From: Dehalococcoidia bacterium
GTDB lineage: Bacteria > Chloroflexota > Dehalococcoidia > UBA2979
Direction of reading: 5' to 3'
Assembly (NCBI GenBank): GCA_009692685.1
Contig: SHYS01000019.1
Location: forward strand, 1-18,747
Length of the DNA: 18,747 bases
Of the stretch, positions 1,375 to 18,747 are shown in pieces; the first letter of the stretch is position 1; every line of letters begins with the position of its first letter. The position numbers and the translations under genes were made by a program. The notes beneath the pieces are model-generated. The model was not told the DNA's origin. It was given only the letters and a program-made list of their open reading frames with translations, and did no database searches.

Positions 1375-1567
1375 TGTGGCAATTCGTCGCTCCCCACTGT
1401 GAATTCCACTATGACGGAGCGAGCGCTAATCGGCACGTCGGGTCGGCTCCCACGCAGCGGTTCCTCCAACCTACCGACGAGCGGGGTGGTGCGTGGCGTG
1501 ATATCAGACTTCTGCATCGACGCCTGATCAGGTTGCATGCGTCTTGCTCGGGGTTGCTGGATCGGTG

Positions 1568-2563: not shown

Positions 2564-2600
2564 CGCTAATTCCCCCCGTGTCGACGCCCTAGCGCGCCGC

Positions 2601-2636: not shown

Positions 2637-2665
2637 TGTACGCACGCGGGAAGTGAGTTTGAGGG

Positions 2666-5353
2666 CTAGCCGGCGGCCGGAGCGCCTGCGGGGTCAACGC
2701 CGACTTCGGCCGCACCGGGGGCCTCGGCGCTGCGAGGCGCAACACGCGGACGGTAGAGGTCTAGGCGCTCCTCGTGCAGACGTTCTCCGAATTCGGCACG
2801 GATGGTGTCGAACTCCTGCATGTCCCACTCGGAGACGAAGGTAATCGCCTTGCCCTCGCGTCCCGCTCGGCCCGTCCGGCCGATGCGGTGGATGTATTCC
2901 TCGGCGTTCTGGGGGACGTCGAAATTCAGGACGTGCGTGATCTCGGGGATGTCGAGGCCGCGCGCGGCCACGTTCGTCGCCACGAGGACATCGAGCGTGC
3001 CGACGCGGAAGTCGGCGATCACGTGGTCGCGGTGGCGCTGGTCCATATCGCCGTGGAGGGCACCGACGCGGACGCCCATGCGCGAGAGGTTCGCCTCCAG
3101 CATGTCGACGGCACGCTTGGTCTTGCAGAAGACCAGCGTGCGCCCCTTCAACTCGCGTTCGATCAGTTCGCGGAGGCCCGCCGCCTTATCGCGGTGAGCG
3201 ACCTCGAAGTAGATCTGCTCGATCGAGTCCACCGGGGTCGATTCGGCGTCCACGGCGATCTGTTGCGGATCGACCATGAACTGCCAGATCAAGCGGCGGA
3301 TGCTGCCCGGCATGGTGGCGGAGAACAGGGCCGTCTGACGACGCTTCGGCGTCCGCCCGAGGATGCGACGGATGTCCGGCAGGAAGCCGATGTCCAGCAT
3401 CTGGTCGGCCTCGTCCAGCACGGCGTAGGTCACGTGGCGTAGCGAGAGCGTGCCCCGCTGGAGGTGGTCGATGATCCGGCCCGGCGTCCCGACGACAATC
3501 GCGGGCCGCCGTTCGAGGGCTTGCAGGTCGTTGCGGATCGCGTGCCCGCCCAACAGACCGATGGCCTGCATACCTCGCGGTGTCGCGATCAGTTGGAGGA
3601 CTTCCAGGACCTGTTGCGCGAGCTCGCGCGTCGGTACCAATACGAGGCCCTGCACTTCGCCGAGGTCGGCGTCCAGTTTCTCCACCATCGGCACGCCGAA
3701 GGCGACGGTCTTTCCGGACCCGGTCTTCGCAATGCCCACGACGTCGCGCCCGTTGAGGAGCGCCGGGATGGCCTGCTCCTGGATTGGGGTTGGCGTCTGG
3801 AAGCCGAATGTCGCGAGTGCGGGCAGTGTCCGCTCGGTCGCGCCGAGGGCCACGAAGGCCTGCGGATATGTCGAGGGGTCGGCGACGACTGGCACCGGAC
3901 GAGGTCGTCGTGCGGTCGGCTTCGGCTGCTCCGCCTCCGCCGCGGGTGTCTCGACGACTTCACGTCTTCGTGCAGCGGGCTTCGGTGTATCAGCACGCGG
4001 TGCCACCACTTGCGGCGCGGCGACCTCGGGCTCGGCGCTTGAGGCACGCGTGCTCCGTCGGGCGGCGACGCGCGGGCGGTCGTCCTCAGAGGCGGTGGCG
4101 GGCGACCGGAATCGCGAGGCAGCACGCACGACGACCGGTGCGGCGGGAGCTACGTCGAGGACGGGCGACTCGATTGCGTCGAACTCACTGACCGCCGGGG
4201 GTGTGTCATTCATGTCGTCCACGTCCATATCGAGGTCGATGGCGTGGTCGTCATCGAAAGGTGCGAGTGCGCTCGACCCATCGGCGTTGGCGTCATCGCT
4301 GGGGTCGAGGGGTGTCGCGTCACTGCTGCGACGGCGGTTGCGTCCGCCTCGGCGACCGCGACGACGGCGCTTGCGCGCCATCTCGTCTTCGCCCGCAGAC
4401 TCCGAGCCATCGGTGGGCTGCATGACGACCTCAGTGATCGCCTCGATTTCGAGGGCGACGGCCACAGGGTCGACAGCGGGCACAAGCGGCGGGTTGATCG
4501 CGCCGCCGTCTGGCGCGACGAGCGCGAATGGGTCGTGGACGCCGAGGGCGACTGCGACGGCGTACGGCCGCGGCAGGTATGCCCCGTAGGGCTGGAGCGG
4601 GATGTCGTGTTCGATCCATCCGCCGAGGCTGCGCGGGCCGGCGAGCAGTACGCGCTCGTCCTCGCGGATGCCCTGCGGGCGTTTGCGGCGGCCGGGGAAA
4701 ATTGTGCGGTCGCCACCTTCGGGCGGTGACCGGAACGCGAGGTCTTCGGGCAGCGGCGGCTCGTGCTGCATGTCGCGTGGTCGGACGGCACGACGTGTGC
4801 CTCGGCGGCCTCGGTCGCTGTCGCGCGCCTCGTCGCCATCGACGCGGCGGCCCCAACCGTACGAGCGGGCTTCGGCAGGTGCCGCGACCGGCGCTGCTGT
4901 GGCGCCAGGGCGCCGACGGGTCACGACGATGGGGCGGGCGACGACGGCGCTGCCTGCGCGCGGTGCCTCGGTAGTGGTGTTGGCAGCGGCGGAGCGGGTG
5001 GCGGCGGAGCGGGTGGCGGCGGAGCGGGTGGCGGCGGAGCGGGTGGCGGTGGCGCGGGGAGTGGAGGTGCGGGCGGTGCGGACGACCGGTGCTACCGATG
5101 TGTCCGTAGCCTCGGTGGTGTCACCGTCTGTGCGCTTGCGGCGGTTGCGGCCACCTCGGCGGCGCCGCCGCGCACCATCCTCCGAAGGTTCGTCGCCTTC
5201 GGCGCTGTCACCGTCATCGAGACGGTCGCCGAGGTCATCCTGGGCCACGTCGAGCGTGGCTCTGGGTGGCGGTGGACCGGAGTCGGGGGAGTCGCCATCC
5301 TCGGGCGTGGTGCCGAGGACCTTCTGCATCAGGCTGCGGAAGACTGGAGTCAC
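2666..5353 (-). CDS. DEAD-box ATP-dependent RNA helicase with ~490-residue disordered/Arg-rich N-terminal extension
   Basis: ATP-dependent RNA unwinding/remodelling (RhlE/CshA-type core), acting in RNA decay or ribosome assembly. The 895-residue protein is roughly twice the usual size. The core sits at about 495-860: Q motif FGFQTPTPIQEQ (516-527), motif I AKTGSGKT (542-549), PTRELAQ (574-580), TPGR (623-626), DEAD (647-650), SAT (678-680), VFCKTK (741-746), ATNVAARGLDI (792-802) and HRIGRTGRAG (822-831). Before it lies a long extension with two Arg/Gly-rich patches (about 61-74 and 328-342) resembling RNase E-type RNA-binding patches. It also has four ATRSA repeats (103-122), an unrecognised block rich in aromatic and aliphatic residues (about 200-310), and acidic and Ala/Pro linkers. 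GTG 5353 is preceded by AAGGAA; ATG at codon 9 is the alternative start. Core function is certain; the role of the extension is inferred (RNA binding, scaffolding or condensates). Confidence 0.93.
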   Translation of the reverse strand: MTPVFRSLMQKVLGTTPEDGDSPDSGPPPPRATLDVAQDDLGDRLDDGDSAEGDEPSEDGARRRRRGGRNRRKRTDGDTTEATDTSVAPVVRTARTSTPRATATRSAATRSAATRSAATRSAAANTTTEAPRAGSAVVARPIVVTRRRPGATAAPVAAPAEARSYGWGRRVDGDEARDSDRGRRGTRRAVRPRDMQHEPPLPEDLAFRSPPEGGDRTIFPGRRKRPQGIREDERVLLAGPRSLGGWIEHDIPLQPYGAYLPRPYAVAVALGVHDPFALVAPDGGAINPPLVPAVDPVAVALEIEAITEVVMQPTDGSESAGEDEMARKRRRRGRRGGRNRRRSSDATPLDPSDDANADGSSALAPFDDDHAIDLDMDVDDMNDTPPAVSEFDAIESPVLDVAPAAPVVVRAASRFRSPATASEDDRPRVAARRSTRASSAEPEVAAPQVVAPRADTPKPAARRREVVETPAAEAEQPKPTARRPRPVPVVADPSTYPQAFVALGATERTLPALATFGFQTPTPIQEQAIPALLNGRDVVGIAKTGSGKTVAFGVPMVEKLDADLGEVQGLVLVPTRELAQQVLEVLQLIATPRGMQAIGLLGGHAIRNDLQALERRPAIVVGTPGRIIDHLQRGTLSLRHVTYAVLDEADQMLDIGFLPDIRRILGRTPKRRQTALFSATMPGSIRRLIWQFMVDPQQIAVDAESTPVDSIEQIYFEVAHRDKAAGLRELIERELKGRTLVFCKTKRAVDMLEANLSRMGVRVGALHGDMDQRHRDHVIADFRVGTLDVLVATNVAARGLDIPEITHVLNFDVPQNAEEYIHRIGRTGRAGREGKAITFVSEWDMQEFDTIRAEFGERLHEERLDLYRPRVAPRSAEAPGAAEVGVDPAGAPAAG
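4986..5045. repeat. Four perfect 15-bp tandem repeats inside the helicase gene
   Basis: The unit GCGGCGGAGCGGGTG occurs four times head to tail without mismatch (4986-5000, 5001-5015, 5016-5030, 5031-5045), followed by a degenerate fifth copy. On the coding strand it encodes (ATRSA)x4 at residues 103-122 of the disordered N-terminal extension. The unit is a multiple of three, so gain or loss of copies would keep the frame. Perfect identity suggests recent slippage expansion. Confidence 0.95.
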
Positions 5354-5536
5354 ATCGTTCCTTCGGTTTGGAGGGTCCCGCGCGCGTCTTCGCGCTGCGC
5401 GGAGGCAGGTCTGTCCCGTTGGGGGGCGGCCGGCGCCGTTGGGCGCCCTCGGCTTGTGTTGGATTCAGTCTACCAGCGCCACCAAATGAGCGCGAACGGG
5501 TGTTTCCCGACGCCCGAGGGCCAGCCTATGCCCCGG
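5354..5536. other. Intergenic region upstream of the helicase and downstream of purU
   Basis: This 183-bp gap must hold the 3' end of the purU transcript and the helicase leader. It contains GGCGCC-GTT(G)-GGCGCC (5432-5447), which can fold with a four-base loop, and a GC-rich alternating patch (5378-5400). The Shine-Dalgarno AAGGAA lies just before the helicase GTG. No convincing sigma-70 promoter or T-tailed terminator is visible. Long structured leaders are common for cold-induced DEAD-box helicases, but nothing here proves one. Confidence 0.3.
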
Positions 5537-6418
5537 CTAACGGAAGACGACGGTCTTGTTCCCGTGGACGAACACCCGATCCTCGATGTGCCATTGCACG
5601 GCGCGTGCGAGGACGCTGCGCTCGACCTCGCGCCCCAGCCGGACGAGGTCGTCCCGCGCGTCTCGATGTGACACCCGCACCACGTCCTGCTCGATGATCG
5701 GGCCCTCATCGAGATCCTGGGTCGCGTAGTGCGCCGTCGCCCCGATGATCTTCACGCCACGCTCGAAAGCCCGGCCGTAGGGGTCGGCACCCGCGAAGGC
5801 GGGCAGGAACGAATGGTGGATGTTGATGATGCGCGCGGGGTACTCGGCAATGAACTCGCCACTGAGGATCTGCATATAGCGAGCGAGCACCACGAGGTCG
5901 ACGTTCGCTTGCTGGAGGAGGGCTCGGATCGCCGTTTCCTGCTGTGCCTTGGTCGCGCTTGTCACCGGCAGCACGTGGAACGGCAGCCCGAACGCCTCGA
6001 CGTCCACGCGCAACGCCTCGTGGTTGGAGATGACGAGGGGGATGTCGATCACGAGTTCGTGACGTCGCCATCGCCACAGCAGTTCCAGCAGACAGTGATC
6101 GGTGCGGCTCGCCATCAGCGCCACTCGAGGGCGATGGTCCCCCGAGAGTCGCCATTCCATCGCGAACGGTGTCGCGACCTCGCTGGCGAAGCGCGCGGTG
6201 AGCGTTTCCACAGACGCGTCTAGGCCGGTCGCCTCGAACTCCACGCGTAGGAAGAAGCGGCCCGCGCCGCTGTCACCCTCGAACGCCGTGGAGTACTGGT
6301 CGGCCTGCACGATGTTCGCGCCATGCTCGAAGAGGAACTTGGAGACCGCAGCGACAATACCGGGCCGGTCGGGGCACTGGATGAGCAGGCGGAGCGCGGG
6401 GGTGGAGGGCGTCGTCAC
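5537..6418 (-). CDS. purU: Formyltetrahydrofolate deformylase
   Basis: Hydrolyses 10-formyl-tetrahydrofolate to formate and tetrahydrofolate in the cytosol, balancing the one-carbon pool for purine and methionine synthesis. Its 293 residues match the family. An N-terminal ACT-type regulatory domain covers about residues 9-90 ([20 protein letters not shown], then [10 protein letters not shown]). The formyltransferase-fold domain follows, with ISNH (130-133) and the [11 protein letters not shown] active-site block giving Asn199 and His201. Asp237 comes from DLDEGPII. All three expected catalytic residues are therefore present. The GTG start at 6418 is preceded by AGGATCGAGG, and the frame begins right at the ACT domain. 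It lies 45 bp downstream of the 70-residue protein gene on the same strand, so the two may share a transcript. No riboswitch is visible upstream. Confidence 0.95.
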
Positions 6419-6463
6419 GCCTCGATCCTACCGGGCCGCAGGCGTAGCCGCGCTGAGCGGCGC

Positions 6464-6676
6464 TCAGGCCGTCGGAAGAGCGCGGCGGATGCCGTCCACC
6501 ACGCCGAGGATAGCGTGGACCTCGATGGCCTCGCCGGGCTGGAGGTCGGCGTCCACCATGTCGTGGGAGAGGCGGGCCTGCTGTGCGCCGGCAGCGCCGT
6601 CCGCCAGGTAAATGACCTGATAGTAGCGCGTGCCGTGGAGTTCGAACGGCATCACTGCCTGCACCGTTGCCCGCAT
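6464..6676 (-). CDS. Small protein of unknown function (70 aa) upstream of purU
   Basis: I do not recognise a named family. The protein is 70 residues and predicted to be mostly beta strand: an initial strand (MRATVQAVMPFEL), then TRYYQVIYLAD, then a final hydrophobic stretch (EAIEVHAILGVVDGIRRAL). It has no signal peptide, membrane segment or Cys pairs. This could be a small beta-barrel or nucleic-acid/ligand-binding protein. ATG 6676 is preferred over an upstream start seven codons earlier, because AGAGGTG lies at proper spacing before it. Codon use matches the neighbours, and the start diverges from the Cys4 protein gene with only 60 bp between them. The gene precedes purU by 45 bp on the same strand. 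A 5-bp stem (GCCGC-GCTGA-GCGGC, 6447-6461) lies in the gap. Confidence 0.6.
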   Translation of the reverse strand: MRATVQAVMPFELHGTRYYQVIYLADGAAGAQQARLSHDMVDADLQPGEAIEVHAILGVVDGIRRALPTA

Positions 6677-6736
6677 CGCGTCACCTCTGGCTCCCATCCT
6701 ACTGTCTACACTCGATGAAGCGAGGTGGGGGCGGCG

Positions 6737-6913
6737 ATGGCTGGCGAAGCGGGACTGTGTGGCGCGTGTGGTTGGGCGGACGCAGTCCGCACCGCCCGGG
6801 GTTCAGTGTTCCTGCGCTGCCGTCGCAGTGACCTCGACCCGCGGTATGCGAAATACCCGAGCCTCCCGCGTATCGAGTGCGCCGGCTTCGAGTTGGCGAA
6901 GGACGAGGGATGA
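6737..6913 (+). CDS. Small Cys4 (probable zinc-binding) protein, 58 aa
   Basis: A 58-residue protein with four cysteines laid out as CxxC (Cys8, Cys11) plus Cys28 and Cys48, set in LCGACGWADAV, VFLRCRRSD and YPSLPRIECAGFE. This looks like a small zinc-ribbon or similar metal-binding fold of the type common as hypothetical proteins in high-GC bacteria. Its role is unknown. ATG 6737 has a strong GAGGTGGGGG Shine-Dalgarno; the GTG four codons upstream has none. Its TGA overlaps the ATG of the haemoglobin gene (ATGA at 6910-6913), so the two are cotranscribed and probably translationally coupled. The gene is divergent from the purU-side operon, and the 60-bp gap must hold both promoters. Confidence 0.72.
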   Translation: MAGEAGLCGACGWADAVRTARGSVFLRCRRSDLDPRYAKYPSLPRIECAGFELAKDEG

Positions 6914-7362
6914 ACGAGTCGGTGATCCCGCCGCGCGCACCTGCGAGTCGTGAACCAGGCCTCTTCGAGCGCGTCGGTGGTCGCGCAGTCGTCGAGCGTG
7001 TCGTCAGCGAGTTCTACGACCGGGTGGAGGCGGACGAGGAGCTGCGGCGAGTGTTCCCCGTCGACTTCGCTGAGGGGCGGGAGAAGCAGGCGCTGTTCCT
7101 GGAGCAGTGGCTGGGGGGCGAGCCGCGCTACTCCGAGCGATTCGGGCATCCTCGACTGCGGATGCGGCATTTCCCCTTCGTCATCGACGAGCGGGCGGCC
7201 GGCCTCTGGCTCCGCCACATGGGCGAGGCGTTCCGTGCGGCAGGTGTGGGGGAGCGGGAGATGCAGGAGGTCTTCGCCGGCCTCGGCCCGCTCGCCAAGC
7301 ACATGGTCAACGCGGGCGACGACGTCCCGCGTGGGCCGCTCGGCGAGACGTTCCTGCAGTAG
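6910..7362 (+). CDS. Group II truncated haemoglobin (trHbO-like)
   Basis: A cytosolic haem protein of 150 residues that binds O2 or NO; roles in the family include NO detoxification, oxidative-stress protection and O2 delivery or sensing. Visible features are Tyr36 (FYDRV, expected B10 position) and REKQALFLEQWLGG at 57-70. Next come GHPRLRMRH with the proximal His87 followed by FPFVI, and Trp100 (GLWLRHM), which fits the G8 Trp of group II. About 15 extra N-terminal residues (ESVIPPRAPASREPG) precede the globin fold. ATG 6910 is chosen because AAGGACGAGGG lies directly upstream and the start overlaps the stop of the Cys4 protein. It ends 6 bp from the convergent SRPBCC gene, with no room for two separate terminators. 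Confidence 0.93.
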   Translation: MNESVIPPRAPASREPGLFERVGGRAVVERVVSEFYDRVEADEELRRVFPVDFAEGREKQALFLEQWLGGEPRYSERFGHPRLRMRHFPFVIDERAAGLWLRHMGEAFRAAGVGEREMQEVFAGLGPLAKHMVNAGDDVPRGPLGETFLQ

Positions 7363-7368
7363 GCCTCG

Positions 7369-7791
7369 CTAGTTCGAGCCCTCGACGCGCGGCTTGAGCG
7401 ACTCCGCCTCCGTGGTGACGTAGGCCCGCACTTTCTTCCCGTAGATGGCTCCGACGACGGGCGCGAGCAGGCCGGTGAATTCCGCAAGCAGCCGGACGCG
7501 CGAACCGTCCGGAGACGACGCGATGACGTGGTCCCCGTTGAAGGCGAGGCCCGGCTGCTTCGTACCACAGAGGAAGCGCCGCCCCTCCTCGACCGCCAGC
7601 ACGGTGAGGACCGACGGACGTAGGCCTGGTTGCTTCACCCGCGCGCGCAGGCCGACTCGCAGTGGTAGCGGATCGAGGGCCTCGATGCTCGTCATCGTGG
7701 GCGTCCAGTCGGGCCAGTGTTCGATATCCGCAAGGACGCGCCAGATCGCGTCGACGGGCGCGGCGATATCAATCGTGTGCTCGTATCGCAT
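7369..7791 (-). CDS. SRPBCC-family (START/Bet v1-like) protein, polyketide cyclase/dehydrase type
   Basis: A 140-residue helix-grip protein that probably binds a hydrophobic ligand. The opening RYEHTIDIAAPVDAIWRVLADIEHWPDWTP is the family hallmark: strand 1, then a PxxxIWxxLxDxxxWPxW segment. Later strands include VKQPGLRPSVLTVLAVEEG and RVRLLAEFTGLLAPVVG, followed by the C-terminal helix. ATG 7791 is preceded by a perfect GGAGGT. The A of this ATG is the last base of the menG stop (TGATG), so translation is coupled to menG. This operon position suggests a link with quinone or isoprenoid metabolism, but the family is too broad to say more. It converges on the haemoglobin gene with a 6-bp gap. 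Confidence 0.88.
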   Translation of the reverse strand: MRYEHTIDIAAPVDAIWRVLADIEHWPDWTPTMTSIEALDPLPLRVGLRARVKQPGLRPSVLTVLAVEEGRRFLCGTKQPGLAFNGDHVIASSPDGSRVRLLAEFTGLLAPVVGAIYGKKVRAYVTTEAESLKPRVEGSN

Positions 7792-8528
7792 CAAAGTACC
7801 TCCGGTTTTCGGGCCACATGCATGGCCACCGTCCCGAACATCAGGCGACGCACCTGCGTCACCTCGAACCCAGCGGCGCGCAGGCGCGCCGTGAACTCGC
7901 GAGGCGTGAGGAAGTGATCGACGGATACCGGCAGGTAGGTGTACGCGCTGCTGTGACCCGAGATCAGCCGTCCGAGGCGTGGCACCACCTGGTTGAAATG
8001 CACGCGCGCGAACGGGCGCAGCAGCCCGCCGTCCATCTTCGGGATTTCGAGGACGGCGAGACGTCCGCCCGGCCGCAGGACACGCGCCGCCTCACGCAGC
8101 GCCGCGTCGAGGTCGGGGATGTTGCGCACCATGAAGGCGGAACACCAGACATCGACGCTCGCGTCGGGCAGCGGGAGGCGGGTCGCGTCGCCGAGGGCGA
8201 ACCCGGTGTGCCCGAACTGTTCGCGTTCCGACTTCGCGCGCGCGCGGGTCAGCATGGTCCCCGCGAAATCGAGGCCGATCACCTGCGCCGCGCCAGCATC
8301 GATGCACGCGAGCGCGAGGTCGCCTGTCCCGGTGCCGGCATCCACGACGGTGTTGCCAGGCCGGACAACAGCCCGCGCCGCGCGACGACGCCAGCCCTGA
8401 TCCTGGCCGATGGTCATCACGCGGTTCATGAGGTCGTAACGCGGAGAGATCTCGCCGAACATCGTCTGAACGTAGGCGGCGCGCGCGGCGCCATCCTCGA
8501 ACAGCCGGTCGGTGCGGTCGGCGGTCAT
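7791..8528 (-). CDS. menG: Demethylmenaquinone methyltransferase / UbiE-type C-methyltransferase
   Basis: SAM-dependent C-methyltransferase that converts demethylmenaquinone to menaquinone (or the ubiquinone equivalent) at the membrane surface. The 245-residue length is typical. Family signatures are clear: MFGEISPRYDLMNRVMTIGQDQGWRR (starts at residue 23), SAM motif I VVDAGTGTGDLAL (61-73), the acidic end of strand 2 (IGLDFAGTML), GDATRLPLPD (113-122), and MVRNIPDLDAALREAARVLRPGG (starts at 133). The closing region with AYTYLPVSVDHFL also fits. ATG 8528 has only a poor Shine-Dalgarno (TAGG-like). The gene follows the LLM oxidoreductase by 70 bp and overlaps the SRPBCC gene by one base. In a likely non-ubiquinone organism menG is the better name; the ubiE role cannot be excluded. 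No other men genes lie in the window. Confidence 0.9.
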   Translation of the reverse strand: MTADRTDRLFEDGAARAAYVQTMFGEISPRYDLMNRVMTIGQDQGWRRRAARAVVRPGNTVVDAGTGTGDLALACIDAGAAQVIGLDFAGTMLTRARAKSEREQFGHTGFALGDATRLPLPDASVDVWCSAFMVRNIPDLDAALREAARVLRPGGRLAVLEIPKMDGGLLRPFARVHFNQVVPRLGRLISGHSSAYTYLPVSVDHFLTPREFTARLRAAGFEVTQVRRLMFGTVAMHVARKPEVL

Positions 8529-8598
8529 GCGTCGAGCCTACGCCCGCAGGTGCGTGAGCGGGAGGGGCTTCGGCGCGGGATCGAGGTCGCCCCGTGCG

Positions 8599-9597
8599 TT
8601 ATCGCAGCACGGACTCCAGCCACTTCCCGACAGCCTTCGAGTCGCCGGCGGGCGAGTAGAGGATCTGAAGATCCGCGCCGAGGGTGGCGCGTTCCTTCAA
8701 CTGCTCGCGCACCTCATCGATGGAGCCGATGACCTGGCAGGCGCGCACCATATCGTCCGAAATTGCGGCGATCGAGCCCTCGGCGTCCCGGGCGGCCCAA
8801 GCCGCCTTGGACTTCGCCACTTCGTCCGCGAACCCGTTGCGCTCCAGCATCTGCCAGTAGAAGACGCCCATCCGGTTGATGTAGTACTGGAGGAGCCGGC
8901 GCCCCTCGTGCCACAGTGCCTCGTCCTCGGACGACCCATCGAGGATCGACACCTTCGTGTACGGGGCGATGGTGAACGGCTGGTCGGCGGGCCGACCAGC
9001 TTGCTTCGCTCCGGCGCGTAGTTCGCCGCGCAGCGTCTCGAAGTGCTGCTTCGGCCAGTGGATCGGGAGGATGCCATCGGCGATCGCGCCGGTCTGGCGG
9101 ATGGACGCTGGCGTGATCGCAGCCACGTACACCGGCACCTTGGTCCTCGGGCGCTCGTAATTCAGCCGGAAGTCGCGCTTGAGGGTGAAGATCTCGCCCT
9201 CGTAGTTCAGGGGCTGGCCAGCGATCAGCATGTCGAAGATCTCGATGTATTCGCGGAGGCGGCGCAGCGGCTTCTTGAATGGCACGCCGTGGAAGTGCTC
9301 GATCACGTACTCCCCGGAGGAGCCGAGGCCCAACGCCATCCGGCCGCCAGAGATCTGTTCCATCGTGGCGAATTCCTGCGCGATCGCGGCAGGGGACCGC
9401 GAGAACACGTTCAGGATGTTGGTGCCGATTGTGACCTTCGAGGTGTTCGCGGCGACGACCGCGAGCCACGGGATCGCGGACGCGCCCCACGCCTCGCCGG
9501 TGGACAAGAACCCGACGCCGAGTTCCTCCGCGATCTGCGCCGTCTTGACCGACTCGCGCCAGTCTTGGCCTAGCCCGATCGACATCCCGATACGCAT
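8599..9597 (-). CDS. LLM-class flavin-dependent oxidoreductase (second paralogue)
   Basis: Luciferase-like TIM-barrel oxidoreductase (FMN or F420), 332 residues; substrate unknown. The first strand is RIGMSIGLGQDW. SGGRMALGLGSSG lies at 83-95, HFHG at 101-104, then KPLRRLREYIEIFDML, PLNYEGEIFTLKRDFRLNY and ITPASIRQTGAIADG. ATG 9597 is chosen over an upstream start 36 codons earlier: it has a GGGGGTGCGAG ribosome site and puts the conserved strand at the N-terminus. A small CCCGC-CT-GCGGG inverted repeat (9606-9617) overlaps that ribosome site region. Block-by-block it closely matches the protein at 1568-2563, while the C-terminal third differs more, consistent with different substrates. It is first in the run to menG and SRPBCC, and divergent from the nurA-herA operon with 119 bp between. 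Confidence 0.9.
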   Translation of the reverse strand: MRIGMSIGLGQDWRESVKTAQIAEELGVGFLSTGEAWGASAIPWLAVVAANTSKVTIGTNILNVFSRSPAAIAQEFATMEQISGGRMALGLGSSGEYVIEHFHGVPFKKPLRRLREYIEIFDMLIAGQPLNYEGEIFTLKRDFRLNYERPRTKVPVYVAAITPASIRQTGAIADGILPIHWPKQHFETLRGELRAGAKQAGRPADQPFTIAPYTKVSILDGSSEDEALWHEGRRLLQYYINRMGVFYWQMLERNGFADEVAKSKAAWAARDAEGSIAAISDDMVRACQVIGSIDEVREQLKERATLGADLQILYSPAGDSKAVGKWLESVLR

Positions 9598-9678
9598 CTC
9601 GCACCCCCGCCTGCGGGCTGATGGTAGGCCCGTCCGCCGAGGCGTAAGCGAACGGATGTGCGGAAGTCCTCGCGCGCG

Positions 9679-9684
9679 TACAAT
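9679..9684 (+). promoter_or_regulatory. Candidate -10 element for the nurA-herA-sbcD-sbcC operon
   Basis: TACAAT matches the sigma-70 -10 consensus at five of six positions and lies 32 bases before the nurA ATG. No good -35 is found at 16-18 bp spacing upstream. It stands out in very GC-rich sequence and is the only such element in the 119-bp divergent gap. Confidence 0.35.
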
Positions 9685-9716
9685 CGGACGGTCTTCCCAG
9701 GACACCGGATCGACGC

Positions 9717-10709
9717 ATGCCCGTCCGCTTGCTCCCGTGGTCGCCCGAATACGGCACCGCGATGCGCATGGACGCCGCCGAGGCTGATGAGGCCGACCGC
9801 GGCGACGTGGATCTGCGCGTCGAACGGGACATCTGGGCCCCTATCACCCCCGGCACCACCCCACCTCTCCGTGTCCGCATCGTCGACGGCGTCCGTCGCG
9901 CCGAAGCCCACGCCCTGGACGACGACCTCGATGGCCTCCCCACGTTCGGCCTCTTCGCTTCCTACGCCGTCGGCGTCGTCGCCTGCGAGCCCTCCGCCGC
10001 CCGCGTCGTGGACGAGGCGACCGACGTCGTGCGGCAGTATCTGCACACGGGCGTCGGCGCGGCCGACCGGATCCTCCGCGCCGGCAGTGCCCGCCTCGAC
10101 TTCCGCGCGCGCGCGGTGCCGCGGGCCAAGAGTGCGGACGACCTCGTCGACGCGATGAACCGCTCGATGCTGGACGCGGAGGCGCACCTCGCCGAGTCGC
10201 TGAGCGAGGACGAGTCCTGGCTCACGCTGGTAGACGGCCCGCTGCGAGGGCTGCGCCACCCGGGCCGCCGAGTCGTCGGCTACATCAAGCGCATGCAGGA
10301 GTGGTACGTCCCCGCCCGTGAAGTCGCGCTGCTGCCGACGCTGCTCCCCGGTGAGCGTACGCCGCTGTTCAGCATCGAGGCGAAGGGCGCTGGCGCCGAC
10401 CACCTGCGCGACGGACGCTATTCTTGGTATGTCCGCATCGCTCACATCGAAGGCCCCATCCACCCGTTGGGTGGAGTCCTGCGCCTCGAGTGCTCGCAGG
10501 CCGTGGGGGTTGAGGGCGCACGCGAACTTGCCGACCTGACCGCGACGCTGCTGCCACGTCTCGCCTCCTCCCCCGTGCGCGACCCGCGCGCGCCACAGAA
10601 CCTCACGCCGACGGGCGCCCTCGAGGCGCGGCTGACGCATTTCCTCGGCGACCGCCGGCTGATCTACCGACTGCTCCTCACCGACCTCGGACGAGGTCTC
10701 GCCGAATGA
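9717..10709 (+). CDS. nurA: NurA-family 5'-3' nuclease
   Basis: NurA nuclease (RNase H-like fold, Mn-dependent) forms a toroidal dimer on the HerA hexamer and resects the 5' strand at DNA ends. In this 330-residue protein the expected acidic motifs are seen: RIVDGVRR with Asp57 as the first catalytic acid, and TLVDGPLRG with Asp173 as the conserved LDGxL-type motif. After these come VVGYIKR (186-192), GRYSWYVRI (233-241) and the closing LTPTGALEARL plus RRLIYRLL, typical of bacterial NurA-domain proteins. ATG 9717 is the only upstream Met in frame; AGGA lies 15 bases before it, so initiation may be weak, and Met16 or Met18 is possible. Its TGA overlaps the herA ATG (ATGA). The position directly before herA supports the call more strongly than the divergent sequence does. 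Confidence 0.88.
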   Translation: MPVRLLPWSPEYGTAMRMDAAEADEADRGDVDLRVERDIWAPITPGTTPPLRVRIVDGVRRAEAHALDDDLDGLPTFGLFASYAVGVVACEPSAARVVDEATDVVRQYLHTGVGAADRILRAGSARLDFRARAVPRAKSADDLVDAMNRSMLDAEAHLAESLSEDESWLTLVDGPLRGLRHPGRRVVGYIKRMQEWYVPAREVALLPTLLPGERTPLFSIEAKGAGADHLRDGRYSWYVRIAHIEGPIHPLGGVLRLECSQAVGVEGARELADLTATLLPRLASSPVRDPRAPQNLTPTGALEARLTHFLGDRRLIYRLLLTDLGRGLAE

Positions 10710-12457
10710 CGCTCGACCCGACGGCCGACGCCGCCTACCGCGGTCTCGTGCTCGGCACCGAGGCGGAGGCCTCGACGCCCTTCGGCTTCTCCGTGTGGGT
10801 CGACCCGACGCGTTTCCTCCAGTTGGACGATGTCGTGACTGTCATCACCACACTCCCCGACGGCACGGAGGTCGAGACATCCGGCATCGTGGACGATGTG
10901 CGCACGCGACAAGAGGGCGTCGCGCTCACCTCGGATGTCTCGCTCGCGCGCGACGGTGTGCTGCCGGCGCAGCAGGCGACCTCCGCCCACATCTCGGTGA
11001 CGCGTGTGGAGCCCGAGGTCTATGTGCCGCCGATGCCCGGGCAGCCGGTGCTGCTCGCGCAGGGCGCCGCGCGCGACCGCGCGCTGTTCTTCGACCGTAT
11101 GGCCGAGCAGTTCCCGCTCGGCCTCGCACGCGACGGTTCAATGATCGTCGGGAACCTCGAGTTCCTCGACGGTGCGAAGGGTGCGCACGTCAACATCTCC
11201 GGCATCTCCGGAGTCGCGACGAAGACCTCGTACGCCACGTTCCTGCTCTACGCGCTGTTCGAGGGCCGTTCGCTCGGCGCACGGCGCGCGAACGCGAAGG
11301 CGCTGATCTTCAATGTGAAGGGCGAGGACCTGCTGTTCCTCGACCGTCCGAACGTGATGCTGACCGACGAGATTCGTGAGCGGTACGCCTCGCTGGGTCT
11401 CCCCGCCGGCCCGTTCGGCTCGGCCGGCTTCTTCGCCCCCGTGCGTCGAGGTGACCTACCGATCCCGGATACCGGCGCGCGGCAGGAAGGCGTCACGGGC
11501 TTTTTCTGGACGCTTCGTGAGTTCTGCGAGGAGGGCTTCCTGCCCTTCCTCTTCACCGAGGCAGACGCTGAGACCTCCCAGATGTCCTACGTCATCGATG
11601 CCGTCGCCGCGCGCCTTGCTGCCGCGGCAAAGGCGCGCCCGGCTGGCCCCAACGTTTTCATCGATGACGTGGAGGTCGAGGACTTCGACCAGTTGTTGGA
11701 CGCGATCGACACACACCTCGACCCCGACTCGGACCTCGCGTTCAAGTGGGCAGGCTCTGGGAACAGTGCGGCTGCCATCGGCACCATCCGAGCGTTCATG
11801 CGACGCCTTCATGGCTCCGCGCGTCATGTCGGCACGCTGATCCGAGGCGCGGGCGCGGCGAGCCCGGAGAAGCACCGCATCGGCTTCCAGCACCAGGTGA
11901 CCGTGGTCGACTTGCATCGACTGCACGATCGCGCCCAGCGCTTTGTCGTCGGTGTGCTGTTGCGTCGAGTGATGGAGGAGCGCGAGTCGCGACCGGGTAC
12001 GGACCGCCCGGCGCCCTTCTTCGTCGTCGTCGACGAGTTGAACAAGTACGCGCCACGCACCGGTCGGAGCCCGATCAAGGACGCGCTCCTCGACATCGCC
12101 GAGCGCGGTCGATCGCTCGGCGTCATCCTGATCGGTGCGCAGCAGACCGCCTCCGAGGTGGAGCCACGCATCGTGGCGAACGCCGCGTTCCGCGTCGTCG
12201 GCCGCCTCGACCCCGCCGAGGCGCAGCGCAATGAGTACCGCTACCTCACGCCCACGACACAGAAGCGCGCCGCGTTGCTGAAGCCTGGCTCGATGATCGT
12301 GGCGCAGCCGGAGATCCCTGTCCCGCTGCTACTGGAGTTCCCGTGGCCCGCATGGGCGACGCGTGCCTCCGAGGTTGCCCCGACCGACGAGGGTGGCGAT
12401 CCGGCGCCCGTGCCTCGACTGCTCCGCCGCTTCGACGTTGGCGATCCGGAGGACTAG
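10706..12457 (+). CDS. herA: HerA-type DNA translocase ATPase
   Basis: Hexameric FtsK/HerA-superfamily ATPase that pumps duplex DNA and works with NurA in end resection. The 583 residues start with a beta-rich HAS-barrel-like region (about 10-105: GLVLGTEAEASTPFGFSVWV, then VTVITTLPDG). The P-loop segment is GISGVATKT (166-174), where a Thr replaces the usual Gly before Lys173. Walker B is FVVVDE ending Asp443-Glu444, followed by LNKYAPR. Next come the sensor-like ILIGAQQTASEV (474-485) and VVGRLDPAEAQRNEYRYL (497-514), equivalent to the HerA arginine-finger region. An insertion-like segment (about 245-395) separates the two Walker motifs. The start overlaps nurA by 4 nt, and sbcD starts 2 nt after its stop. 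Other HerA-like ATPases act in phage defence with different nucleases; the sbcCD linkage favours repair. Confidence 0.88.
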   Translation: MTLDPTADAAYRGLVLGTEAEASTPFGFSVWVDPTRFLQLDDVVTVITTLPDGTEVETSGIVDDVRTRQEGVALTSDVSLARDGVLPAQQATSAHISVTRVEPEVYVPPMPGQPVLLAQGAARDRALFFDRMAEQFPLGLARDGSMIVGNLEFLDGAKGAHVNISGISGVATKTSYATFLLYALFEGRSLGARRANAKALIFNVKGEDLLFLDRPNVMLTDEIRERYASLGLPAGPFGSAGFFAPVRRGDLPIPDTGARQEGVTGFFWTLREFCEEGFLPFLFTEADAETSQMSYVIDAVAARLAAAAKARPAGPNVFIDDVEVEDFDQLLDAIDTHLDPDSDLAFKWAGSGNSAAAIGTIRAFMRRLHGSARHVGTLIRGAGAASPEKHRIGFQHQVTVVDLHRLHDRAQRFVVGVLLRRVMEERESRPGTDRPAPFFVVVDELNKYAPRTGRSPIKDALLDIAERGRSLGVILIGAQQTASEVEPRIVANAAFRVVGRLDPAEAQRNEYRYLTPTTQKRAALLKPGSMIVAQPEIPVPLLLEFPWPAWATRASEVAPTDEGGDPAPVPRLLRRFDVGDPED

Positions 12458-12459
12458 GC

Positions 12460-13623
12460 GTGCGCTTCCTGCATACCGCCGACTGGCACCTCGGCCGCAC
12501 GATTCGTGGCCGTAGTCGCACCGTCGAGTTCGAAGCGGTGCTGGCCGAGGTCTGCGCCATCGCGCGCGACCGGAGTGTCGATGTCGTCCTAGTTTGCGGC
12601 GACATTTACGACTCGACTTCGCCGCCGCCCGAGGCCGAACGGCTGCTCACAACGACGCTCCGCGCCCTCGTCGAGGCGAAGGTCGAGGTCGTGCTGATCG
12701 CCGGGAACCACGACCACCCGCGCCGCCTCGACGCGCTGGGGAAACTCGCGGAGTTGCTGGGTGTCCATGTGCAGTCGGCGGTCCGCGGCCCGGAGGATGG
12801 CGGCGTCATTACCATCGAGCGCGGCGGCGAGACCGCGAAGATCGCCGCGCTTCCATGGGTGCCTGAGGGTCGTGCCGCCGACCTCGAAGCTATCCTCGGC
12901 CCGCGCGAGGAGGCGTTCCAGGGGTATGCGGGGCAACTGTCGGAGTTGTACCGACACGTCGCGAAGGCGTTCACGCCGGAGACGGTGAACATCCTCGCGT
13001 CCCACGTCTTCGTCGACGGCGCGCAGATCGCGATGACCGATGGCTCTGAGCGCCGCCTGCACATCGGCCAGACCTACGCCGTGCCGCCCGCCGCGATCCC
13101 GACGAACGCGCACTACTCCGCTCTCGGCCACGTCCATCAGCCGCAGGACATCGTCGGTACCCCCTCGCCAGCCGCCTACTCCGGCTCGCTGCTTCAGATG
13201 GACTTCGGCGAACGCGACCAGCAGAAGGGCGTCTGGGTCGTCGAGGCCCACCCCGACCGCCCTGTGCAGCGCGAGTTCGTCCCGTTCACCTCGGGCCGGC
13301 CCCTCATCGAGGTGCGCGGCACGCTGGACGAGGTCATCACGCAGGGCCTCGCGCGACCGGATGCGTACATCCGCGCAGTGGTGTGCCTCGATGCCTACGA
13401 GACGGGGATCGCACCCCGGGTGCGTGAGGCCCTCGCCAACTGCGTCGACGTGCGCGTCGAGGTGGCACGCGAGGAGCGGGCGCTCGCCGATCCCGAGTTC
13501 AAACACCTCAAGCCCGCCGAGCAGTTCACCCGTTACTACGCCTCCTCCCACGGCAAAGAGCCGGCGCCCGCTCTCGTCGCCCTCTTTCGTGAGGTGGTGG
13601 AGGAAGCGACGGCGCAGACATGA
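12460..13623 (+). CDS. sbcD: SbcD/Mre11 DNA repair exonuclease subunit
   Basis: Mn-dependent calcineurin-like phosphoesterase; with SbcC it opens hairpins and blocked DNA ends as nuclease subunit of the SbcCD (Mre11-Rad50) complex. All expected metal ligands are present: Asp8 and His10 (TADWHLG), Asp48 (CGDIYD), Asn83 and His84 (AGNHDHP), His182 (ASHVFVDG), and His224 and His226 (LGHVHQPQ). The phosphoesterase fold covers about 1-275. The C-terminal capping and SbcC-binding part follows to 387, a normal length. I chose GTG 12460, which gives the canonical start RFLHTADWH and has GGAGG seven bases upstream. The in-frame ATG 39 codons earlier lies inside herA and adds non-homologous sequence. 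The 2-nt gap to herA implies coupled translation. Confidence 0.95.
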   Translation: MRFLHTADWHLGRTIRGRSRTVEFEAVLAEVCAIARDRSVDVVLVCGDIYDSTSPPPEAERLLTTTLRALVEAKVEVVLIAGNHDHPRRLDALGKLAELLGVHVQSAVRGPEDGGVITIERGGETAKIAALPWVPEGRAADLEAILGPREEAFQGYAGQLSELYRHVAKAFTPETVNILASHVFVDGAQIAMTDGSERRLHIGQTYAVPPAAIPTNAHYSALGHVHQPQDIVGTPSPAAYSGSLLQMDFGERDQQKGVWVVEAHPDRPVQREFVPFTSGRPLIEVRGTLDEVITQGLARPDAYIRAVVCLDAYETGIAPRVREALANCVDVRVEVAREERALADPEFKHLKPAEQFTRYYASSHGKEPAPALVALFREVVEEATAQT

Positions 13624-13636
13624 CCGGGAGCCGGGC

Positions 13637-16600
13637 GTGAGGCCCGTACGCCTCGAACTGCAGGGGTTCACGGCGTTTCGTGAGCAGGCCACCCTCGACT
13701 TCGAGGGGCGACGACTTTTCGTGATCACCGGTCCCACCGGCGCCGGTAAGTCCTCGTTGCTGGACGCGATGACCTGGGCGCTCTTTGGCCAGGTACCGCG
13801 TGTGGGCACCAGCGTGGGGCAGTTGATCTCGCAGGGCGAAACATCGATGCACGTCAAACTCGAGTTCGAGACGCGTGGTCGTCGCTACCAGGTCGCGCGT
13901 CGCGCATTGACCAAGGGCCCCGGCGCGGTACGCCTTGAGCGCCGCGACGCCTCGGGCGACTGGGAGCCGATCGCTGACCGCACGACCGAGGTGAAGACGC
14001 ACGTCGAGCGTCTCCTCGGCATGGACTACGCGACCTTCACTCGCACCATGGTGCTGCCGCAGGGCGCCTTCGACGCGTTCCTCCGAGGCGAACCGCGCGA
14101 CCGCCGTGAGATCCTCTCGCGTCTCATCGGCCTCGATGTCTACGAGACGGCTCGTCAGATCGCAGGCACGCGCGCCAGCACGGCGAAGGCGGCCGCCGAC
14201 ACCCTGCGCGCGCAACTCGCCTCGCTCGACCTTGCGACGCCGGAGCGGATCGCCGCGCTCCGCGCCGACGAAGTCGCCGCCCGCGCACGCCTCGAGGCGC
14301 GCACCACACGCTTCGAGGTGCTGCGCGGCCTGGCCGACTGCTGGCGCACCTTCGAAGCGGCTCGACAGGCAGCATCGGAGGCAACCATCGAAGCCGAGCG
14401 CGCTGCACAGGCGACGCAGACGGCGAAGCAGGCGCTCGAGGCTGCGCAGCAAGCATCCGTCGACGCGCAACGTCAGGCCGCCACGGCCGAAGCAGATCGT
14501 GCCACCCTTGCCTACGACCGCGAGGCGCACGAAGCGCTTCGTGTCCAGATCTCGCTCCTCGACCGGCGAGCCGCGGCTCTGCGCGACGTCGAGGCGGCAC
14601 ACACCGCCCTCGCAACCGCGGAACGTGACCACGCCACGGCCGAGGCCGGCGCTGCCGTTGCCGTGCGTGCCTCGAAGCAGGCGGAGCGCGTGCTGCAGCA
14701 GGCTCGGACGAGAGCCGAGTCCGCGGCCGCACAGGTCACTAGTGCCGCTGCTGCCGCCGTCGCTGCTCGGGACGCCTTGCAGGCGGAGGCGCTTGCACGA
14801 TCCGCCGAGGTGGTTGCGGCGCGCAAGGAAGCGCAGGAGGCGCAGGCACGCGCGCTCGCCATCGAACAGATCGCGGTGCGCCTCGCAGGCGAGGCGGAGA
14901 CGGAACGTTTCGCCAGCCTCACCCACGCCGAGGCGGTTCGCGCCGCGAAAGCGGCGACGCGAGACGCCACGGCCGCCACGAAGGCGCATACCACCGCCGA
15001 GCGGATTGCCTCGGCTGCGCGGGAGAAGGCCGAGGCCGCGCGTCGCGCGAACGCCGCTGTCGATCTGTCACGTGGTTTGAAGAAGGGCGACCGCTGCCCG
15101 ATCTGCGGCGACACCCTGACCGCAGCGCCCAAGCATGCGAAGACCGACTTCGACGCGGCTGAACGCGCCGTCGCCGAAGCGGAGCGCATCCTCGGAGCAG
15201 CCGCCGCAGCGGTTTCCACCGCCGCCTCGGCATCAGCCGTCGCCGCGGAACGTGTCGAGGCGCGTGCCGACGCGCTGGCGATGGCGACCGCACGCCGCGC
15301 CGAGATCGAGGGCGAAGTGAATGCACTTGGCGTCACTGCGCTCGACTTTCCGAAGCAGGCACAGCGCGAGTCGAAGGCCGCCGAGCAGGCCGAGGCACGT
15401 GCCACCCGTGCGGAGCAGGTCGCCGAGCGGGCCTCGGCCACCGCACGCGCTTTCGATGTGGCCCTCGGGCCGCTGGGAGCCACACCGCCTGCGGGTGATC
15501 CCGCTACGTCCCCGGTCGCGCTCACGCGTGCCATCGAGGTGGCTGCCGCCGCTGACCTCGCAGCCCGGACGGCCGTCAGTGCCTTCGACAGCGCGCAGCA
15601 CGATGCAGACGCCGCACAGCGCGAAGTCGCGTTGCGCGATCAATCACTCCGAACCGCCCGCGACCACGATCGAGGTGCCGCGGAACGCCTCGCTGCGCTC
15701 GGTACCGTCGAGGGCGACTCCGCCGCAGTCCACCGAGCCTTCGCTGCTGCCGAGCAGGCGGTCGCGCGGGCGGCGGCCCTCGATGCCGCGATCACGAAAG
15801 CACGAGTGGCATGCGCCGCCGCCGAGGCCTCAGCCGTCGCGGTGAGCACGGCCCTCGACGTTGCACAGACAGACGAGCGCGAACGGACCGCGCGCGTCGC
15901 GAAGCAGCGCGACGCCGAACAGCAGGCGGTCGATGCGCTCACGAGGACCTGGCGCGACGTCCTCGGTGATGGGGCGCCATCGAAGGCGGCGTTGGCGACC
16001 GCGCAGCGCGAGCATCAGGCCGGGCAGCAGGATGCGACACTCCGCGCGGGTGCCCTCGGTCAGGCCGTCGTGCAGGCGGAGCAGCAGGCAGAGCAGGCCG
16101 CCGCCAGCGTCGCCGAGATCGCCACGCATGAGGCACGACACCGGCTGGCGACCGAACTCCACACCGAGTTGCGCAGCGACCACTTTGTCGACTTCCTGCT
16201 CAGCGAATCGCTTGAACTGCTCGCGCGCGACGCCTCGCTGCGCCTCATGCAGTTCTCGACGGGCCGGTACGAACTCCAGACGGCTAAGGGCGACTTCCTC
16301 GTGCTCGACCACCAGAACGGTGATGAGCGACGATCGGTAAAGACGCTCTCCGGCGGCGAAACGTTTCTCGCCTCGCTTGCCCTTGCACTGTCACTGTCCG
16401 AACACCTGCCGGAGATCTCCGGCACCGGCGGTGCGGTCGCCCTCGAATCCCTCTTTCTGGACGAGGGCTTCGGCTCGCTGGACGCCGAATCGCTCGACCT
16501 TGCCGTGCAGGGCCTTGAGGCGCTCGTGGACGGCAATCGGATGGTGGGGGTCATCTCTCACGTCGAGGAGTTGTCAGAGCGCCTGCCCTCGCGCGTCCAC

Positions 16601-16648
16601 GTGGAGAAGCACGCGCATACCTCGTTGATCCGCCCCACGGCAGGCTGA
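13637..16648 (+). CDS. sbcC: SbcC/Rad50 SMC-like ATPase subunit
   Basis: SMC-type ATPase that tethers DNA ends and gates the SbcD nuclease. The 1003-residue protein has Walker A GPTGAGKS (32-39) in the N-terminal lobe and the Q-loop region [14 protein letters not shown]. Long Ala/Arg/Glu-rich coiled coils span about 170 to 860, broken at the middle by a zinc hook CPIC (Cys487, Cys490). The signature TLSGGET is at 903-909 and Walker [12 protein letters not shown], with Asp942 and Glu943, in the C-terminal lobe. The start is GTG 13637, preceded by GGGAG at six bases, and puts [15 protein letters not shown] first as in the family. The frame is open far upstream inside sbcD, but that part has no homology. 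The gap to sbcD is 13 nt. The Ala-rich coil produces long open frames on other strands that are not genes. Confidence 0.95.
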
Positions 16649-16696
16649 GGCGGGTCGGAAGCCGTCACCCGACGCGCCGTGTACCATCCGAGGCTC

Positions 16697-16771
16697 GGGC
16701 CCGTAGCTCAGCGGTAGAGCAGTGGACTTTTAATCCATCGGTCCTCGGTTCGAATCCGAGCGGGCTCACCA
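16697..16771 (+). tRNA. tRNA-Lys (anticodon TTT), CCA encoded
   Basis: The cloverleaf folds cleanly. Acceptor GGGCCCG (16697-16703) pairs with CGGGCTC (16761-16767) with one G-U. D arm is GCTC/GAGC, anticodon stem GTGGA/TCCAT around CTTTTAA with TTT at 16729-16731, and T arm CTCGG-TTCGAAT-CCGAG. Discriminator A and an encoded CCA end the gene. TACCAT at 16682-16687 is a possible -10 with no clear -35. The 3' half of tRNA genes is the classic integrase attachment site, and a recombinase gene starts 228 bp downstream. Confidence 0.97.
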
Positions 16772-16999
16772 CTCCCCCATACCTCCCCGGCCCCCTCGCC
16801 CCCTGGGGGCTCCTGTGCGCCCGGCTGGGGCCTCAGGCGCGCCGAGCGCGCGCGGGGGGCCCTTATCCGCCGGATAACGCCGTGAGGGGCGCCCGCAGCG
16901 GCCGATGCTGATCGAGGGATTCGGACCAGCCGCTCACCGACTTGCTTTGAGGGGGAGACAGAGCGCTGATGCGTGTCGTCCGGGAAAGGCGGCAGCGGC
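16772..16999. other. Non-coding junction between tRNA-Lys and the recombinase chimera
   Basis: No gene is seen in these 228 bases. The first part is C-rich with a GCCCCC-T-GGGGGC palindrome (16798-16810). The perfect inverted repeat at 16863-16877 is listed separately. A GGGGGAG stretch at 16950-16956 lies too far from the chosen start to be its ribosome site. If an island is integrated in tRNA-Lys, its left arm and any attL arm-type sites would be here. Confidence 0.5.
16863..16877. repeat. Perfect inverted repeat TTATCC-GCC-GGATAA
   Basis: Two 6-bp arms, TTATCC (16863-16868) and GGATAA (16872-16877), flank a 3-bp spacer. The arms are AT-richer than the surrounding GC-rich sequence. The site lies 91 bp after the tRNA and 122 bp before the recombinase ATG. 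Possible roles are a regulator operator or a recombinase/excisionase site. A 3-bp spacer is shorter than the 6-8 bp crossover of usual tyrosine recombinase core sites, so an operator or arm site is more likely. Confidence 0.45.
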
Positions 17000-18442
17000 A
17001 TGGCGCAGATCGACGACCAGATAGCAACGTACCTGCAGGCGATTGAGATCGAAGGGAAGACGGTCAAGACGATCGCCAGCTACGCCAACTCGCTGGCTGC
17101 GTTTCGCGGCGTTGGTGCACGACTCGGCTTCCCCGACGGTGTTTCCGACTACGAGGTGGCCCATGTGTACGCGTTTCTCGGTGACCTCCGAGCCCGCGGC
17201 GCGTCGGCCGGCTACCAGCATCGGCGTCATCGCGAGGTGAAGACCTGCTTCTCCTGGTTCAAGCGGATGGGCCTGGTGCAGGAGAACGTATTCGCGCGAG
17301 TCCCGCTCGTGAAACGCCCTCAGCTGATCAAACCGCCGTTTGCTCCTGAAGAGGTCCAACGCCTGTTGGATGGTCAGGAGCGCTCCACGGCGGGGGGCTC
17401 ACGAAACTATGCGCTCATCCTGTTCCTGCTTGATACGGGAGTGCGCGCCTCCGAATGCATCGCACTCGAACTGGCGGACATCGACTGGGAGCGGTCGCGT
17501 GCGTTTGTGCGCCATGGCAAGGGCGAGAAGCAGCGGTGGGTAGGCTTTGGAGCACGGACGGCCGATGTACTTCGTGAGTACTTCGTACAGTTTCGTGGCG
17601 AGGCCCCCGGTGCGTTCTTTCTGACCAGCACCGGCCGGCCGATGACTGCGGCCGGGACGCTTGAAGTGCTCTTGCGTCGGCTCGGCGCGCGCGCGAACGA
17701 GTTCCGCGGACCCTGCGCCGCCATCGGAATAGTTGCCGCGAAAATCCGCTCATTGCAACCTCGCCCCGACATCTCCGAGATCATGGACGACGTTGAAGCG
17801 CTTCTTGATTCGTCAGTGGCGACAGAAGACTACGTAATTCGAAATGATCCACCAATCGACCTGAGTCAGATCGACTTCGATGCTCTCGCGGCACGGTTCC
17901 AAAGCGGACGTCGGCATACCGACGCCGAACGTTTACGTTCCGCGGTGGAGCGGAAGTTGGAACGGATGATCGAGCTCAATCACTCCCGACTCGACTTCAA
18001 AGAGAAATTCCAGGCGCTCATTGATGATTACAACTCTGGCGCGGCTAACGTGGAGGCGTTCTTCAGGGAGCTAATGGAATTCGCGAAGGCGCTCGACGAA
18101 GAACAGAAACGCACGATTTCTGAGCAGCTCAGTGACGAAGAGCTTGCTCTCTTCGATCTGCTAACTCGCCCGGAGATCACACTCACCAAGTCTGAGCGCG
18201 ACAGGGTCAAGAAAGCCGCTCGCGAATTATTGTTCAGCCTCAAAGCTGAACGGCTCGTGCTCGATTGGCGCAAGCGTCAGCAGAGCCGTGCTGCGGTCAT
18301 GGTCACAATCGAGAACGTGTTCGACAGAGAACTGCCAGAACCGTTCACACCCGATCTGTTCCGGGGAAAGTGCGAACTCGTCTACCAGCATGTATACGAC
18401 TCTTACTTCGGCGAGGGACGCGGCACATACGGCGCGGCATGA
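17000..18442 (+). pseudogene. Chimeric ORF: truncated tyrosine recombinase fused in frame to HsdR C-terminus
   Basis: One open frame of 480 residues joins two unrelated proteins. Residues 1 to about 230 are a phage-type tyrosine recombinase: a SAM-like core-binding domain (about 5-100, with YANSLAAFRG), then the catalytic fold with Arg149 in LDTGVRASE and a beta-hairpin Lys in RHGKGEKQR. It stops at LEVLLRRLGARAN, just before where HxxR, the second His and the Tyr nucleophile should come. From about 240 on, the sequence is the C-terminal helical region of a type I restriction HsdR subunit (PDISEIMDDVEALLDSS, KLERMIELNHSRLDFKEKF, FDLLTRPE, LVLDWRKRQQSRAAV, YQHVYDSYFG). The HsdR nuclease and motor domains are absent. 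The second part is visibly less GC-rich. I chose ATG 17000 (AAAGGCGG upstream) over GTG 16973. The product can have neither recombinase nor restriction activity. A deletion scar is most likely; an assembly join is possible. Confidence 0.8.
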
Positions 18443-18747
18443 ACACAGGACACCATGCGTTGGGAGCGCGGGTGGCCTCTAGCTGGGCGCCAGCCCATAT
18501 CTTCTACATCGCGAAGGTCGCGCAAGTAGCCAGCACTGGTGCATGGGGCTGCTCTGGCAATGCTGCTCAGACCATCACTAATGCTCTCGGGGATGTCGAG
18601 GCGCGCTACCCAGATGTCCTCGCGAGCCTTGCCAAAACACGATGGGTTCTGTCAGAACTCAGGACTCGGTGTCGAAAAGACCTCCGATTCGGATCTTCCG
18701 GTGCCCGCTCCCAGATTCGGAGTGGGGCAACTTCTTCCCCCGCCGAT
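18439..18747 (+). CDS. Unidentified ORF, partial, overlapping the HsdR-like stop
   Basis: An open frame of at least 103 codons starts at ATG 18439, overlaps the chimera's TGA by four bases (ATGA), and runs off the right edge. The N-terminal part reads NTGHHALGARVASSWAPAHI and then LGDVEARYPDVLASLAKTRWVLSELR, a plausible helical protein. I recognise no family. The last 25 residues (GSSGARSQIRSGATSS) look less natural, so a frameshift near 18670-18690 or a chance open frame cannot be excluded. The ATGA overlap with an HsdR tail suggests it was the next gene in the original restriction operon. Confidence 0.4.
   Translation, partial: MNTGHHALGARVASSWAPAHIFYIAKVAQVASTGAWGCSGNAAQTITNALGDVEARYPDVLASLAKTRWVLSELRTRCRKDLRFGSSGARSQIRSGATSSPAD

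Follow-up and report, generated by a model that had tools for sequence, protein, structure and literature searches.

Genomic islands at tRNA and tmRNA genes of Dehalococcoides are a subject of published work (PMC2764846; see also PMC3146451), and passages of PMC2764846 place the integrase gene in a lower-GC island adjoining the tRNA or tmRNA gene. The locus reported here, from a Dehalococcoidia bacterium, lies in an 18,747-nucleotide stretch that makes up all of contig SHYS01000019.1 (hereafter the window) and shares this arrangement, although, set against the islands in those passages of PMC2764846, it has a truncated integrase and an island whose distal end lies beyond the contig.

The open frame beside the tRNA gene recalls two further known systems. 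Residues 1-232 resemble XerC/XerD/XerA-like recombinases of integrative elements in an N-terminal SAM-like domain (Pfam E 0.028, a weak match that misses the cut-off) and in the first part of the catalytic domain, which includes the first Arg motif; we presume motif roles for the segments TGVRASE and KGEKQR within this half. Sequence matches to XerA were found in the PDB (5hxy and 4a8e), and both entries also came first by E-value in a fold search, but with low TM-scores (TMq 0.18-0.22). Unlike these recombinases, the fusion stops before the HxxR and Tyr motifs, which would leave catalysis impossible. The likeness of residues ~230-480 is to type I HsdR (PF11867), from which the fusion differs by the absence of the HSDR_N nuclease, the SWI2/SNF2 motor, domain 3, and approximately the first 103 positions of PF11867.

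Two parentages within one frame

The frame opens with GTG and spans 16973-18442 (489 aa), while homologues point to the ATG at 17000 as the start, from which the protein is 480 aa long on the forward strand (17000-18442; P0001). On the 489-aa frame, Pfam places Phage_integrase (PF00589) at residues 125-242, corresponding to profile positions 5-122 of 172, and T1RH-like_C (PF11867) at residues 259-471, corresponding to positions 104-320 of 329. Given that the first match breaks off at position 122 and the second sets in at position 104, both domains are cut internally. Table 1 collects the features around the join.

Table 1. Features of the window from the tRNA gene to the contig end
Feature	Position	Strand	Remarks
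tRNA-Lys (TTT)	16697..16771	+	likely integration target; RF00005 at 16697-16768
spacer, tRNA to recombinase start	16772..16999	+	228 nt; presumed left attachment region
tyrosine recombinase fragment	17000..17695	+	residues 1-232 of a ~299-aa protein; without HxxR and Tyr motifs
join	17685..17695	+	within an 11-nt alternating GC run
HsdR C-terminal fragment	17696..18442	+	PF11867 from position 104; ~last 250 of ~1050 residues; GC 0.556
start of a frame overlapping hsdR stop (ATGA)	18439..18644	+	no Pfam match; runs into the repeat
MITE-like repeat, first 103 bp	18645..18747	+	terminus GGTTCTGTCAGAACTCAG; contig stops inside

The first-pass annotation, made from the letters of the window, had described an in-frame chimera of a tyrosine recombinase and an HsdR C-terminus, and the comparison with an intact recombinase bears this out. 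This recombinase, P0002, comes from another assembly, is 299 aa long, and does not reach the NCBIfam cut-off for either XerC or XerD. It differs from the window protein at one of 232 residues (residue 214), and it mismatches at every one of the residues compared beyond the switch (233-240, 480-aa numbering). P0002 then runs on into GVANVHPHRFRHTFATW and through to the end of the protein, which means that the recombinase half of the fusion stops short of what we take to be the HxxR and Tyr motifs of P0002; alignment and continuation thus agree with the annotated cut ahead of these motifs. The HsdR side (residues ~230-480) is 66% identical to P0013, with the match beginning at (A)RA-NEFRG. About the first 790 of 1049 HsdR residues are absent from the fusion, and of the domains carried by the HsdRs of loci L074 and L076, HSDR_N, SWI2/SNF2 and domain 3 are all missing. 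The absent motifs and the absent HsdR domains together support the earlier claim that both parental chemistries have been lost, and the breakpoint that had been proposed at 17690-17720 was correct to within a few bases.

The run at the join is one of three alternating GC runs of at least 11 nt in the window, which holds seven of at least 9 nt. The peptide encoded there, ARA (17687-17695), is compatible with the recombinase, and its RA portion, at a minimum, with the HsdR parent; several HsdR relatives carry ..RANEF or ..RANEY at this point. Judging from these protein relatives rather than from parental DNA, between 6 and about 11 nt at the join may have been common to both parents. GC content shifts at the join from 0.658 to 0.556, which is lower than in any 747-base segment of positions 1-16771, where the minimum is 0.635. 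By itself, the low GC of the HsdR side would be compatible with an island and with a contig of foreign origin alike.

The tRNA-Lys gene and its surroundings

DNA from the near relative G188 is 93.3% identical to window positions 10256-16771, and the alignment stops at the last base of tRNA-Lys. The protein encoded at 10706-12457 is 99% identical in G188 and 87-93% identical in four other genomes (G311, G145, G210, and G375), and it has matches at E <= 1e-50 in 69 of 393 genomes of the class. Past tRNA-Lys, G188 carries other genes, among them a metallo-beta-lactamase-superfamily gene about 1.9 kb on, whose homologues in G145 (74% identical, starting 56 bp past tRNA-Lys) and G375 (80%, match starting 93 bp past it) lie closer to the tRNA. 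On the upstream side, where the window has an SbcC-like ORF ending at 16648, the match to the DNA of G145 and G375 covers no more than about 20 bases before the tRNA. The window and G188 thus have in common the link between sbcC and the tRNA, while the link between the tRNA and the metallo-beta-lactamase-superfamily hydrolase gene is common to G188, G145, and G375. A tblastx comparison of G188 DNA with the window and with locus L043 returned dispersed short matches in GC-rich DNA, and we discounted it.

The integrase directly 3' of tRNA-Lys in the window is absent from all three relatives examined past the same tRNA. No recombinase match at E <= 1e-3 was found in the fetched 10.0 kb of G145 or 12.0 kb of G375, and in G188 the sole match at E <= 1e-50 (60%) is on another contig. 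Since these relatives have no recombinase at this position, the one in the window marks an insertion there. Insertion of an island at tRNA-Lys, which the first-pass annotation had also suggested, is therefore well supported by the end of G188 homology at the last tRNA base and by the differing DNA of the relatives beyond it.

Recombinase matches at E <= 1e-50 occur in 4 of 44 genomes of the family. We considered whether tRNA adjacency might be a general rule for related recombinases and did not find it borne out: a tRNA was found in the fetched flanks of just one of 12 loci (L010-L021), near none of the recombinases at the five larger loci L077-L081, and not within the 5.8 kb before the recombinase at L001.

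Upstream of the tRNA gene, positions 9717-16648 hold a NurA-domain gene and its neighbor, followed by SbcD-like and SbcC-like genes, and this DNA aligns with G188, G311, G145, and G210 across the stretches fetched. The neighbor of the NurA-domain gene, the gene at 10706-12457, is HerA-like by position alone, with no Pfam match above cut-off.

The contig end and the origin of the join

A repeat begins 202 bp past the hsdR stop and is cut by the contig end. The last 103 bases of the window, which are the first 103 bp of the repeat, align with elements at three other loci, reaching 72% over 93 bp with the element at L085. Complete copies elsewhere measure 142-180 bp; those at L110 (78-257) and L111 (118-259) have the exact 18-bp terminus at both ends, and the one at L085 (1376-1518) has it with one mismatch at one end. 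The elements are short, multicopy, bounded by terminal inverted repeats, and too small for a transposase, as MITEs are, with the window copy being incomplete. Of the 44 genomes in G188's family, 7 carry the exact terminus, GGTTCTGTCAGAACTCAG (24 copies, three of them in G188), as do none of 200 other genomes in the phylum sample; a viral contig collection gave one stretch, and the stretch 18443-18747 had no match among plasmids. With exact copies limited to this family among the genomes sampled, we think a cross-organism chimera unlikely; the sequence past the join is very probably from that family as well.

The same terminus occurs at position 4141 of locus L047 (G188:C25, 2848-4692), downstream of a 60%-identical recombinase that lies 204 nt 3' of tRNA-Met. 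The frame that follows it (4192-4692) has a weak zinc-ribbon match only; it presumably resembles the start of an IS transposase, and it may be part of the element by which the repeat is mobilized.

We consider it probable that a short-homology deletion within an island at tRNA-Lys gave rise to a dead chimeric frame. In a Chloroflexota (probably Dehalococcoidia) genome, a mobile island would have inserted at the 3' end of tRNA-Lys so that its gene for the tyrosine recombinase came to lie beside the tRNA. A short GC-rich repeat in int and another in hsdR would later have served as the ends of a deletion that took the 3' end of the recombinase gene, roughly the leading three quarters of hsdR, and anything between them; the frame would have been left open by chance, and the island would then have been unable to excise via its own integrase. 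We favor this history because the parentages are clean, the join falls in a GC run with RA or ARA fitting both parents, and int lies directly 3' of tRNA-Lys. The repeat terminus also very probably ties the hsdR side to the same lineage, both domains are cut inside, and a 59-60%-identical recombinase sits 3' of tRNA-Met on a different contig of G188, across a spacer of 204 nt. If the deletion is real, this lineage carries an immobilised island with the remains of a restriction gene at a tRNA.

The first-pass annotation had gone further in proposing one deletion from int to the 3' end of hsdR. A single event would be the most economical account, and it agrees with a join placed in a GC run and with the common lineage of both flanks, but an intact island running from int to hsdR was not found, hsd (type I) genes were near none of the related recombinases at the five larger loci L077-L081, and G188 does not match the HsdR tail at E <= 1e-40. 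Weighing against the deletion reading are this unseen layout, the intact P0002, and a single join near a contig end.

The main rival is an assembly misjoin, in which a contig bearing int and an hsdR tail, derived from one organism or from close relatives of each other, would have been linked via a chimeric read or a short overlap in the GC run. We regard a misjoin as the less likely origin, though one to be taken seriously. The join was seen once, in a GC run, and the contig stops 1.05 kb further on within a multicopy repeat; in addition, the recombinase is intact in another assembly, and GC falls at the join. Counting against it, an overlap of approximately 11 nt is below the k-mers usual in assembly. 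Given the lineage-specific repeat beyond hsdR, a chimera across lineages is unlikely, but a misjoin within one genome or between close relatives would be compatible with that repeat, and although frame and orientation suit a simple deletion, a random join so oriented would be in frame one time in three. It had been expected that a relative with a full integrase would mark the join as an artefact. Such a relative exists in P0002, but as P0002 is an intact allele somewhere, it does not follow that the join is artefactual. For joins close to the end of a contig, the lineage-specific repeat end offers a means of distinguishing those within a lineage from chimeras of different organisms.

Searches for the same fusion and the predicted product

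A recurring fusion would instead suggest a functional new protein, in which the DNA-binding domain of a recombinase is paired with the C-terminal helical domain of HsdR. We find this very unlikely, despite a 480-codon open frame and high predicted confidence (pLDDT) in most blocks of residues 1-230 and 381-470. Among the 119 homologues listed (the best 120 of 562 hits, window protein included), none spans both sides: 68 match on the left, recombinase side and 51 on the right, HsdR side, in a search that scored the 7994 candidates with most words in common and whose length limit excludes HsdRs of about 1050 aa. Mapping the alignment ends on either side of the join, as the annotation had proposed, gave clusters at 228-233 and 230-232; 64 of the 68 listed recombinase alignments stop within the former, and 34 of the 51 listed HsdR alignments start within the latter, with 13 starting at 195-215 and four at 234-244. 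A query restricted to the junction region, residues 190-290 in the 489-aa numbering, had 1345 candidates and retrieved three proteins and no second fusion, namely the window itself and the one-sided P0002 (51% covered) and P0021 (50% covered). None of the 360 matching plasmid records and none of the 18 matching phage records covers 80% of the query in a single place, and matches were one-sided in the 20 listed of the 360 plasmid rows and in all 18 phage rows. Nor was a described int-HsdR fusion found in the literature, as judged by titles and abstract openings. Within the reach of these searches, the idea of a recurring new architecture is thus not supported by listed homologues, junction search, plasmids, or phages, and the case serves mainly as a worked example that an apparent two-domain novelty with an open frame may be no more than the scar of a single deletion, or else a misjoin.

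Neither parent could be followed usefully into other collections. All seven pattern matches to the HsdR tail in viral contigs were rejected, with no relative among them, and although 23 of 25 matches to P0002 there were true relatives, their 29-56% identity was too remote to help. In genome contigs, one of 60 pattern matches to the P0002-family alignment was a relative (L001).

The structure model of the fusion had a mean pLDDT of 71.8 and a pTM of 0.34. Seventeen of the 23 ten-residue blocks in residues 1-230 had mean pLDDT of 82-95, and eight of the nine blocks in 381-470 had 80-92, while residues 231-332 were mostly under 50. As a control, we modeled the C-terminus of an HsdR that has no join (P0021; mean pLDDT 64.5), which has a confident bundle of six helices at residues 37-134 and falls mostly under 50 at 150-218. 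Given that the intact control is also low there, part of the drop in the fusion is uninformative on the join, and we discounted low confidence past the join as a sign of misfolding. The approximately 20 residues just past the join score 35-41 in the fusion versus 65-86 in the control, in a region where the fusion alignment (A6) is mixed. The join corresponds to P0021 residues 112-114, so the first four of the six helices of this first HsdR bundle are gone, along with the end of the recombinase catalytic domain, which argues further against a functional protein. Since the product would have neither the recombinase HxxR and Tyr motifs nor the HsdR nuclease and motor, and both of its domains are cut inside, we judge it to be inert.

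It is most improbable that an expressed fusion would act as a trans-dominant DNA-binding protein silencing excision or restriction; were it to do so, its recombinase arm would sit on the island attachment site with the HsdR tail docked on a methyltransferase or HsdR partner. Equally hard to credit is fusion through transposition or site-specific recombination in place of a short-repeat deletion, since the mobile-element end 202 bp past the hsdR stop, which would be in its favor, has its terminus 949 bp from the join, and the 18-bp terminus does not recur in the window even when up to three mismatches are allowed.

Across the class, the HsdR tail is rare, with matches at E <= 1e-40 in 3 of 393 genomes (best 57%), whose HsdRs are 51-55% identical; G188 has no match at this threshold. 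At locus L076, a type I operon (1993-10047) runs hsdM-hsdS-(GmrSD with DUF5655)-hsdR with 4-base overlaps between successive genes, such that a GmrSD type IV restriction gene lies between hsdS and hsdR.
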